Shown in pieces: positions 43,491 through 46,684 of a stretch of 64,000 bases of DNA (its first letter is position 1; each line of letters begins with the position of its first letter). A model generated the notes under the pieces. That model saw only the letters and a program-made list of their open reading frames with translations. It made no database searches and was not told the DNA's origin. The stretch is taken from contig NZ_CP025394.1 in assembly GCF_002943525.1 (NCBI RefSeq), positions 7,269,001-7,333,000 on the forward strand, written 5' to 3'. The position numbers and the translations under genes are program-made. This DNA is from Kitasatospora sp. MMS16-BH015 (GTDB taxonomy: Bacteria; Actinomycetota; Actinomycetes; Streptomycetales; Streptomycetaceae).

Positions 43491-43517
43491 CCGTCGGGCC
43501 CGCAGCGGGCCCGACGG
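43491..43517. terminator. Bidirectional terminator between convergent genes
   Basis: CCGTCGGGCCCGC (43491-43503) and GCGGGCCCGACGG (43505-43517) are exact inverted copies separated by a single A. The hairpin ends right at the helR stop codon, so it serves both the helR transcript and the converging hypothetical gene. Confidence 0.8.
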
Positions 43518-45776
43518 TCAGCGAGGGGTGAGGGTGGTGAGGGTGGGCGGGAGGTCCTCGGTGTGCAGGACGCCGAGGTGTTTGGTGGCGCGGGTGAGGG
43601 CGACGTAGAGGTCGTTGTGGCCGCGGGGGTGGGCGGTGGTGATGGCGGTGGGGTCGAGGACGAGGACGGTGTCGAATTCGAGGCCCTTGGACTGGGCCGG
43701 GGTGAGCAGGAGGGCGGGGGAGTCGAGGGCGGTGGGGGAGTCGGGGGTGGTCATGCCGGGCAACTCGGCCAGGGCGGCGAGGAGTTCGGCGGGGTAGGTC
43801 GGGGGGTGGATGACGGCCAGGCGGCCCTCGGTGCGGGCGGCGAGCTGCTCGGTGACGGCGGCGAGCAGGGCGGGCAGCGGGTTGTCGGCGGGCAGGCGGC
43901 GGCTCCACGGGTGGGTGCCGCCGGTGCGGACCGCACGCGGGGCGGTGAGGGCGGGGTCGAGCCGGTGCAGGGTGGCCTCGGCGACCTGCATGATCTCGGC
44001 CGGGGTGCGGTAGTTGACGGAGAGCTCGACCGAGCGCCAGCGGCCGGCGGTGTAGGCGTCCAGCGCCTCGCCCCAGGAGTCGAGCCCGCCCGGGGTGCCG
44101 GTCTGGGCCAGGTCGCCCACGATGGTCATCGAGCGGCCCGGGCAGCGGCGGGCCAGCATCCGCCAGGCCATCGGCGAGAGGTCCTGGGCCTCGTCCACGA
44201 TGACGTGTCCGTAGGCCCAGAGCCAGTCCTCGGCCGCCCGTTCGGCCAGCGGCCGGAGCGCGGACTCGCCCTGGTACTGCTGCATCAGCTTCTGCGCGTC
44301 GATCTCCGCCAGTCCCTCGCCGAAGTCCGAGAGCACCCGCTCGGCCAGCGCCAACTCCTCGGCGTCGAAGGCCGGTTGCTTCGGCCGCGGGCGGGTGGAC
44401 GGGGTGCCGAGCAGCTCGGCCGCCTCGTCGAGCAGCGGGATGTCCGCCTCCGTCCAGGCCAGGTTGTCGGCCCGCAGCAGGGCCGCGCGCTCGGCGGGGG
44501 CGAGCTCGGGGGCGGCCTCGGCGAGCAGTTCGGGGGAGGTGTAGAGGGCGGTGAGCAGCTGCTCCGGGGTGAGGCGGGGCCACAACAGCTCGGCCACGCG
44601 CTGGACTTCGGGGTCCTCGACCAGCTCGTCGGCCAGGTCGGCGACCGCGTCCAGGTCGAGCTCCTCGGCCCGGTCGCGGGCGATCCGCAGGGCGAGCTCG
44701 GAGGTGAGCCGCTCGACCAGGGCGGGCCGGGCCCGCAGGTGCGGCTCGTTGGTACGGCGGGCGGCGGCCTGGGCCCGCTCGCCGAGCGCCCGGGACACGG
44801 CCATCTCCTCGCGGTGGGCGGAGCCCCGGCCGAGGGTGACCGTCCAGTGGTCGTCGGGGAGTCGGCAGAGCCCGGCGAGGGCGGCGGCGAGCACCCCGGC
44901 CATCCGGGCGCCGCCCTTGACGGCCGCGGCCTCGGGGGTGTCGGCGCCGGCGGCGGTGTGGCCGGGGTAGAGGGTGCCGATGCTGCTCAGCACCACCTCG
45001 CTCTCGCCGAGCGAGGGCAGCACCTGGTCGATGTAGCGCAGGAAGGTGGTGTTCGGCCCGATCACCAGGACCCCGCGCTTGGCCAGCCGGTCGCGGTGGG
45101 TGTAGAGCAGGTACGCGGCGCGGTGCAGCGCGACCACCGTCTTCCCGGTGCCCGGGCCGCCCTGGACGACCAGCACGCCGCCGAGTTCGGACCGGATCAC
45201 CCGGTCCTGCTCGGCCTGGATGGTGGAGACGATGTCGCCCATCCGGCCGGTGCGGGCCGCCGTCAGCGAGGCGAGCAGGGCGCCCTCGCCGCTCAGCGCG
45301 GCGCCGCTGCGGTGGTCGAGGTCGAAGGCGTCGTCGTCGAAGTCGACCACCGTGCGGCCCTTGCAGCGCAGGTGGCGGCGGGCGGCCACCGGGCCGGGGG
45401 CCGCCGGGGTGGCCCGGTAGAACGGCTCGGCGGCCGGGGCCCGCCAGTCGGTGAGCAGCGGCTCGTGGTCCTCGTCGGCGAGCGCGATGCGCCCGATGTA
45501 CTGCCGCGCGCCGTCGGTGCGGTCGATCCGGCCGAAGCAGAGCCCGTACTCGGCGGCGTGCAGCTCGGCCAGCCGGCGGGTGTGGTGGATCTCCAGGGTG
45601 TCGCGCTCGAGCCGGGACTGGAGGGTGCCGCCCTCGCTCTGCCGGTGGATCGCGCGCAGCCGGTCGGTGGCCAGTTCGCGCTCCGCCTCCAGGCGGTCGT
45701 AGAGCTCGCCGACGTACGCGTTCTCGGCGAGCAGTTCGCGCTCGTGCCGATCGGTGGACGGGGTGGTGCGGACCAA
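43518..45776 (-). CDS. helR: HelR-type RNA polymerase recycling ATPase, rifamycin resistance
   Basis: 752 residues, HelD/UvrD-like superfamily 1 ATPase that displaces rifamycins from RNA polymerase. N-terminal coiled coil (about 1-75: HERELLAENAYVGELYDRLE), then a small insertion domain, Walker A GGPGTGKT (206-213), SIGTLYPGHTAAG region, Walker B HVIVDEAQDLSPMAWRML, VGDLAQTG, SVNYRTPAEI and a final YVALTRATKHLGVLHTE. TTG 45776 has CAGGAG six bases upstream and gives the usual length; the longer frame to 45854 would start inside the leader palindrome. A rifamycin-associated-element-like inverted repeat lies upstream. Confidence 0.85.
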   Translation of the reverse strand: MVRTTPSTDRHERELLAENAYVGELYDRLEAERELATDRLRAIHRQSEGGTLQSRLERDTLEIHHTRRLAELHAAEYGLCFGRIDRTDGARQYIGRIALADEDHEPLLTDWRAPAAEPFYRATPAAPGPVAARRHLRCKGRTVVDFDDDAFDLDHRSGAALSGEGALLASLTAARTGRMGDIVSTIQAEQDRVIRSELGGVLVVQGGPGTGKTVVALHRAAYLLYTHRDRLAKRGVLVIGPNTTFLRYIDQVLPSLGESEVVLSSIGTLYPGHTAAGADTPEAAAVKGGARMAGVLAAALAGLCRLPDDHWTVTLGRGSAHREEMAVSRALGERAQAAARRTNEPHLRARPALVERLTSELALRIARDRAEELDLDAVADLADELVEDPEVQRVAELLWPRLTPEQLLTALYTSPELLAEAAPELAPAERAALLRADNLAWTEADIPLLDEAAELLGTPSTRPRPKQPAFDAEELALAERVLSDFGEGLAEIDAQKLMQQYQGESALRPLAERAAEDWLWAYGHVIVDEAQDLSPMAWRMLARRCPGRSMTIVGDLAQTGTPGGLDSWGEALDAYTAGRWRSVELSVNYRTPAEIMQVAEATLHRLDPALTAPRAVRTGGTHPWSRRLPADNPLPALLAAVTEQLAARTEGRLAVIHPPTYPAELLAALAELPGMTTPDSPTALDSPALLLTPAQSKGLEFDTVLVLDPTAITTAHPRGHNDLYVALTRATKHLGVLHTEDLPPTLTTLTPR

Positions 45777-45855
45777 AAGGAGCTCCTGGTGAATTGCGGC
45801 GGCCGAATGCGGAATTCCGTGGATATCCGGTTCAGGTCGGCAATTCTGCGGCACC

Positions 45856-45882
45856 CGGGGGGCCTTGCCGCAAGGCCCCCCG
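45856..45882 (-). promoter_or_regulatory. Rifamycin-associated element (RAE)-like palindrome upstream of helR
   Basis: CGGGGGGCCTTG (45856-45867) and CAAGGCCCCCCG (45871-45882) are exact inverted copies around 3 bases. Read on the helR strand the core is CTTGCGGCAAGGCCC, fitting the reported RAE pattern of a GGGGCTTG-type half-site facing CAAG(G/C)CCC. It lies 80 bp before the helR start. TATAAAT and TATACC (45883-45898 area) lie just upstream on the same strand as -10 candidates, so the element would sit at or just after the transcription start. Confidence 0.75.
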
Positions 45883-45894
45883 TACGGTATAGAT

Positions 45895-46548
45895 TTATAG
45901 TGCGGGAGGGTGTGATGACACCCTGCGCGAGGACATCCTGCGGGCCACGGCGAGGAAGCGATCCGCCTGGTCGTCGTAACCGGTGAGTTCCCATCCCGCG
46001 GTGGCCAGGGCGGCTCGGAGATTCGGTTCGGTGCGTACGTCCTCCGGGGTGAGGGTGCGGCCGTGCTTGGCGGCCAGCGCCGCGCGGCCGATCGGGTAGA
46101 AGAGGGCCAGCAGCCCGCCGGGGCGGGTGACGCGGGCCAGTTCGCGGAAGCCGGCCACCGGGTCGGTGAGGTGGGAGACCAGGCCCGAGCCGAAGACGGC
46201 GTCCACGGTGGCCTCCGCCAGCGGCAGCCGGAGCACGTCGGCGGCGGCCAGCTCGGCGAAATCGGCCTGCGCGGCGGCCTCCTGGAGCATCTCGGGGGTC
46301 AGGTCCACCCCGAGCACCCGACCCGTCGGCCCGACGGCCGCCCGGAGCAGCGGCAGGGCGCGGCCGGTGCCGCAGCCCGCGTCCAGCACGAACTGGCCCG
46401 GCCGGAGACCGAGTTCGGCGATGGCGGCGGCGAAGCGCGGGCCGTCCTCGGGGAAGCGCTCGTTCCAGGTGGCCGCGCGGGCGGCGAAGAAGGCGCGGAC
46501 GCCGGCCGGGTCGTCCCGGTAGCCCGGGCGAGGATTCTGGTAGGTCAT
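45895..46548 (-). CDS. Class I SAM-dependent methyltransferase
   Basis: 217 residues. Motif I is FVLDAGCGTGRALPLL, motif II region GRVLGVDLTPEMLQEA, then ELAAADVLRLPLAEATVDAVFGSGLVSHL and the post-motif ARVTRPGGLLALFYP. It resembles the UbiE/Methyltransf_11 group; acceptor unknown. ATG 46548. Its TAA overlaps the probable helR -10 region, so helR and this gene are closely packed on the same strand. Confidence 0.88.
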   Translation of the reverse strand: MTYQNPRPGYRDDPAGVRAFFAARAATWNERFPEDGPRFAAAIAELGLRPGQFVLDAGCGTGRALPLLRAAVGPTGRVLGVDLTPEMLQEAAAQADFAELAAADVLRLPLAEATVDAVFGSGLVSHLTDPVAGFRELARVTRPGGLLALFYPIGRAALAAKHGRTLTPEDVRTEPNLRAALATAGWELTGYDDQADRFLAVARRMSSRRVSSHPPAL

Positions 46549-46684
46549 GCGCGGAGCGTACGTGACCTTTTGCGGGCCCGGTCGTTGGAAGCCGAGAGCG
46601 CGGTTCTTCGAGGTCTTTTCCGAGGGGTCGTCACCCGGTCGGGTGAGGTTCGGTCCCAGAGGTGGGGCCACTCTGACCAGGCAC

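Follow-up and report, generated by a model that had tools for sequence, protein, structure and literature searches.

A rifamycin-associated element upstream of a HelR-like gene in Kitasatospora resembles a palindromic -35 box shared by two divergent promoters

The window, a stretch of 64,000 nucleotides from the genome of Kitasatospora sp. MMS16-BH015, carries on its minus strand a gene for a HelD/HelR-like protein (here helR), preceded by a perfect palindrome and, further upstream, by a methyltransferase-like ORF. The palindrome contains the core of the rifamycin-associated element (RAE) known from actinobacterial rifamycin-resistance genes. The main features are:

43518..45776, minus strand: class II HelD / HelR-like gene, 752 aa, probable TTG start at 45776
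45783-45787, minus strand: AGGAG before the helR start
45856..45882: perfect palindrome, centre 45869, arms 45856-45868 and 45870-45882
45860-45878: 19-bp RAE core, GGGCCTTGCGGCAAGGCCC on the minus strand
45895..46671, minus strand: methyltransferase-like ORF upstream of helR, stop codon inside the element

Read on the helR (minus) strand, the palindrome is CTTGCGGCAAGGCCC. It is one of just two perfect repeats in the 64-kb window (arms of at least 12 bp, spacers of 0-10). The original prediction had described an RAE-like repeat with 12-bp arms lying 80 bp before helR; the palindrome is real and its edge does lie 80 bp from the probable TTG start, but the arms are 13 bp long and flank a single base. 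A second perfect palindrome, CCGTCGGGCCCGCAGCGGGCCCGACGG at 43491-43517, lies immediately past the stop codon of helR; no T tract comes after it, and it is probably the helR terminator.

The protein is by its alignments a class II HelD. Its best match is M. smegmatis HelD (PDB 6yxu), with which it aligns nearly end to end (residues 11-663 and 691-749, E 3.5e-155). It is called HelR-like because it falls below the NCBIfam HelR cut-offs (motor_HelR_2, 651.6 bits against 1100; motor_HelR, 467.2 against 750); it is also below the curated cut-off of HelD_MYCSM. A tree of 172 sequences, with sampling centred round this protein and low deep supports, places RAE-linked HelDs in at least three groups of 74, 5 and 13 members, L207 being labelled RAE-linked only via an apparent operon. 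The window's protein sits in the 13-member group, made up of two entries of itself (L003, L286) and 11 other RAE loci, which at the same low deep supports adjoins HelDs lacking an RAE and lies outside the main 74-member HelR clade. RAE-linked helD genes had already been reported in two sub-branches (PMC8655204). The same genome encodes two further HelD-like genes (G000:C1:3175088-3177004 and 5090623-5092449), with no exact RAE core near either. Among the 80 nearest HelD homologues in the genome_contigs collection, 10 have the core with up to two mismatches within 450 bp upstream; exact core and conserved flanks occur together in L206 only, and the other nine are taken as chance.

The letters GGGCCTTGCGGCAAGGCCC at 45860-45878 match the published RAE core. 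The element is described in the literature as a '19-bp palindrome' (PMC12802891, PMC10719064, PMC8655204, PMC10194278), and the same core can be seen in the oligonucleotides used for M. smegmatis arr (PMC7882622). A genome-wide scan, which the original prediction had proposed as a check, supports this identity. In the 8.96-Mb genome there are three copies of the exact 15-mer of the core and none of the reversed pattern. One copy precedes helR, a second precedes a rifampin monooxygenase gene (rox; rif_monoox 802 bits, cut-off 800) and the third a gene for an Rgt-like glycosyltransferase (rgt; 607 bits, below its cut-off of 800). Chance is thus an inadequate explanation for the 15-mer, since all three copies precede rifamycin-resistance genes and the reversed pattern is absent. 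By its letters and by what lies downstream of all three copies, the palindrome before helR is a rifamycin-associated element. Degenerate elements with three mismatches, sought in the same genome, were dismissed as noise (122+125 matches versus 164+169 in the control).

Beyond this genome, the exact 15-mer was found in 65 of 70 same-genus genomes (reversed pattern, 7/70), a looser pattern, CTTGCSGCAAGRCCC, in 85 of 148 genomes of a mycobacterial-type genus (reversed control, 21/148), and CTTGCGGCAAGRCCC in 25 of the 396 genomes of a phylum sample. The core letters are fixed by these search patterns, and conservation of the core itself is therefore no evidence; the loci are mutually related, and the set names 'streptomycete-type' and 'mycobacterial-type' used below are inferred from the search groups. 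Sixty-six proteins encoded downstream of an RAE were scanned, namely those of 65 further loci (65/68; L303, L304 and L339 were excluded, their picked ORFs looking spurious) and the window's own, and 64 belong to rifamycin-resistance families: HelD/HelR (22), Arr (15), rifampin monooxygenase (13), PPDK_N (7, taken as Rph) and glycosyltransferase (7, taken as Rgt), counts treated as disjoint in view of the differing folds. Because 64 of 66 downstream proteins fall into these five families, the RAE is tied to rifamycin resistance. An RAE before a HelR-like gene, in a genome with RAE-rox and RAE-rgt pairs besides, makes induction of helR by rifamycins the likely role of the element. At L207 and L138 the RAE is followed by an rgt-like gene and, about 1.5 kb further on, by a helR-like gene, an arrangement suggestive of an RAE-rgt-helR operon in a close relative.

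The layout around the element was compared across loci. The first 205 gave 188 distinct core hits, and with 31 set aside for want of a tblastn-assigned gene, 157 remained, oriented by tblastn to the genome's own helR (69), rox (60) or rgt (28). Ten of the 31 were later scored as real RAEs; L001 was outside this rescoring, and at L325 no core of the kind that was scored lies near the middle of the locus. The promoter features that the comparison assigns to the window are:

45868..45873, minus strand: sense -35 box TTGCGG, inside the RAE
45843..45848, minus strand: sense -10 box CAGAAT, 19-bp spacer to the -35 box
45834..45838, minus strand: predicted helR transcription start (45836 by layout, about +/-2)
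45865..45870, plus strand: antisense -35 box TTGCCG, 3-bp overlap with the sense -35 box
45890..45895, plus strand: antisense -10 box TAGATT, 19-bp spacer
45902, plus strand: predicted antisense start, offset 33 from the centre
45907-45924, plus strand: hairpin stem AGGGTGT/ACACCCT, 7 bp, no T tract after it

On the helR side, comparison of the loci shows the palindrome to supply the predicted -35 box of the promoter, followed after a 19-bp spacer by a -10 box that begins with C. In the window this -10 (CAGAAT) lies 21-26 bp downstream of the RAE centre. A gap-tolerant scan from TTGCSGCAAGRCCC to CASAAT, in which nine spacings were allowed, gave matches in 74 of 246 class genomes and none in the reversed control; all of the 95 matches listed share one gap, the 19-bp spacer between TTGCSG and CASAAT. 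Among the loci oriented by their downstream gene alone, [CT]ANNNT stands at offset 21 from the centre on the sense side in 155 of 157, and C occupies position -12 in 155. The same layout agrees with experimental data from M. smegmatis. According to the arr oligonucleotides, the RAE there is centred on -64 and CACAAT spans -43 to -38; the start predicted from these, -31, is exactly the mapped one, reported 31 bp before the GTG (PMC7882622). CRISPRi against arr was most effective at the RAE site, which is not named as such there, and at the -10 (PMC7882622). For mycobacterial helD it has already been stated that the RAE overlaps the -35 of a proximal promoter (PMC10719064).

A further sense promoter (P1) at the TATA-rich block upstream of the palindrome, which the original prediction had read as the -10 of helR, was rejected, as no helR-strand TANNNT is consistently placed upstream of the RAE: position -27 holds one in 14 of 162 streptomycete-type and 13 of 29 class-wide loci, and no position reached 3 of the 34 mycobacterial-type loci. 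The AT-rich hexamers are there, but it is the opposite strand that carries a conserved TANNNT, and the block corresponds to the antisense -10 box at 45890..45895.

This TANNNT occupies the mirror position of the helR -10. It stands at offset 21 in 154 of the 157 gene-oriented loci (any other offset, at most 10) and at the same place in 67 of 68 loci picked blind to the antisense side, and it is absent from all 20 core hits in which the sense -10 is missing. The outward box has T at -12 in 154/157 loci. Its letters vary in mycobacterial-type loci (TATAGT, TATGGT, TACAGT), but the first T, the A and the final T are constant, as expected of a -10 box. Set side by side, the two predicted promoters have equal spacing, and the one that points away from helR has the better -10 (TANNNT). 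The RAE thus looks like one palindromic -35 common to two divergent promoters, which would be mutually exclusive since their -35 boxes overlap by 3 bp and two polymerases could not sit there together. Upstream of a HelD gene in Actinokineospora auranticolor (L217), there is a decayed core, CTTGCCGCGCG, with gtgcgcTAGATTGAGG after it; the latter resembles the outward -10 block, and the whole could be a degenerate or reversed RAE.

In many relatives the predicted outward transcript begins with a hairpin. Among the 157 loci, 65 of 107 strong stems begin exactly at the predicted outward start (offset 33). Of 162 streptomycete-type loci, 101 have a stem (against a mean of 12 and a maximum of 16 in shuffles), and in 67 it is followed by at least four T in 8 nt (shuffles: mean 2.0, maximum 4), while the mirrored sense side of these loci yields 12 stems and none with T's. 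The 29 class-wide loci give 16 stems, 11 with T's, and the 34 mycobacterial-type loci 6 stems, 3 with T's. The rox copy in the same genome has a 10-bp stem within the 41 nt tested, followed by T's. At helR the hairpin region is also the end of the methyltransferase-like ORF, and the whole segment has a z-score of -1.98. Covariation gives the outward hairpin modest support: in tests that ignore kinship, a locus's own arm paired better than a swapped one in 80 of 133 cases (p 5e-4), and it outdid the consensus arm in 72 of 133, with 13 ties. These script tests were used instead of an alignment, MAFFT having left the loops of 71 antisense hairpin segments unaligned. Because the T tract is absent in the window and a terminator occurs in only 3 of 34 mycobacterial-type loci, termination is, on this comparison, not a universal part of the RAE layout. 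The mycobacterial-type RAEs (L291-L319) keep the outward -10 and mostly lack the terminator hairpin, and their outward transcripts may be longer. The window's own outward transcript would be antisense to the methyltransferase-like ORF 45895-46671.

At position 6 of the palindrome the two arms are complementary in only 92 of 225 loci, and the arms do not covary, while positions 7-9 are a nearly invariant CCC on both sides; the downstream side is partly fixed by the search patterns and the upstream side is free. Lack of covariation together with near invariance points to a symmetric DNA site. A promoter or polymerase has no need for GGG/CCC at +/-7 to 9, and since these letters are conserved on both sides of the centre, a dimer is likely bound there; we know of no protein that binds the RAE palindrome. 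That the palindrome should instead act in RNA form, as a hairpin (attenuator or pause) in the leader of helR, agrees with its perfect arms, with the original prediction, which had placed the RAE in transcribed DNA downstream of the helR -10, and with M. smegmatis helD, where an additional sense start (P1) is reported about 20 bp before the RAE (PMC10719064), which makes a longer, RAE-containing transcript possible in some species. That placement is contradicted by the conserved sense promoter, which has its -35 inside the RAE, its -10 downstream and its start beyond the palindrome, and with non-covarying arms and no Rfam family over the palindrome (45700-46100 scanned; one weak match, aspS, scores 21.3 bits where the gathering threshold is 42.5, and lies off the element) an RNA hairpin is very improbable. 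A terminator for the upstream methyltransferase gene would account for a strong GC-rich hairpin just past that gene's stop codon; with no T tract after the palindrome on the minus strand, and the same element preceding unrelated resistance genes in many genomes, its chances are close to nil. Both readings were rejected.

How rifamycins are sensed through the RAE in actinobacteria is described as unresolved in a 2022 review and a 2026 article (PMC12802891, PMC10719064). We propose, with about even confidence, that the RAE controls helR through the -35 shared by the mirror promoters, a block by a factor, by the outward promoter or by both being lifted by rifamycin. RNA polymerase could use only one side of the element at a time. 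Without inducer, a dimeric factor on the 19-bp palindrome would cover both -35 boxes, and/or the outward promoter would take the polymerase, and helR would stay low; rifamycin would lift the block and the helR promoter would fire. A factor covering both -35 boxes is our best guess. The outward transcript would, in many streptomycete-type relatives, consist of a hairpin with T's and end after about 30 nt, and in the window, where the stem is kept and the T tract is absent, it may extend further, in antisense to the methyltransferase gene. A bolder version, which we put forward tentatively and as a possibility only, makes the RAE a two-faced promoter device, in which firing of the futile outward side serves as a rifamycin gauge, yielding in many species a hairpin RNA that is terminated at about 30 nt, and its stop by rifamycin frees polymerase to the resistance-gene side.

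Two other accounts compete with this one. One needs no dedicated factor: the mirror promoters would compete through their common -35, the stronger outward one winning until sub-inhibitory rifamycin impairs it to a greater degree than the promoter of helR. Geometry already makes the two mutually exclusive, their -10 boxes are conservedly unlike (T against C at -12), and helD of B. subtilis senses rifampicin with two promoters (PMC12802891). The B. subtilis promoters, however, converge, and a position-swapped construct was active and not inducible (PMC12802891); moreover, a rifampicin-blocked polymerase on a common -35 would block both sides, and the GGG/CCC arms are left unexplained, which renders competition alone rather unlikely. 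In the other account, rifamycin or stalled polymerase is sensed by an activator; once on the RAE, this activator would bring polymerase to the weak CA(G/C)AAT promoter, and the outward promoter would be a product of the mirror symmetry. The weak C at -12, the 19-bp spacer and the two-fold symmetry would suit it. Deletion of half an RAE was reported to abolish induction (Hurst-Hess 2022, told in PMC10719064); an activator, or the loss of the -35, would explain this no less well, and the result cannot separate repressor from activator because the -35 box is damaged too. An activator is likewise rather unlikely, given that the -35 box lies under the palindrome instead of downstream from it and that the outward -10 is strongly conserved and not decaying.

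The layout changes what RAE sensing must explain. It leads one to expect initiation on the antisense strand and, for many species, a hairpin RNA some 30 nt long. The element shares with the RAE of actinobacterial rgt, rox, rph, arr and helR the 19-bp palindrome, its core and the kinds of gene downstream. The mirror antisense promoter and its hairpin, found here, are absent from the excerpts of PMC12802891, PMC10719064, PMC8655204 and PMC10194278 consulted for this comparison. The rifampicin alarm of B. subtilis helD/pps (PMC12802891) likewise joins a HelD-family gene to a sense and an opposing promoter, and there the promoters alone can give rifampicin induction. Its promoters converge and interfere, whereas those predicted at the window's helR locus diverge from overlapping -35 boxes; this convergence and the non-inducible swapped construct tell against carrying the B. 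subtilis model over directly.
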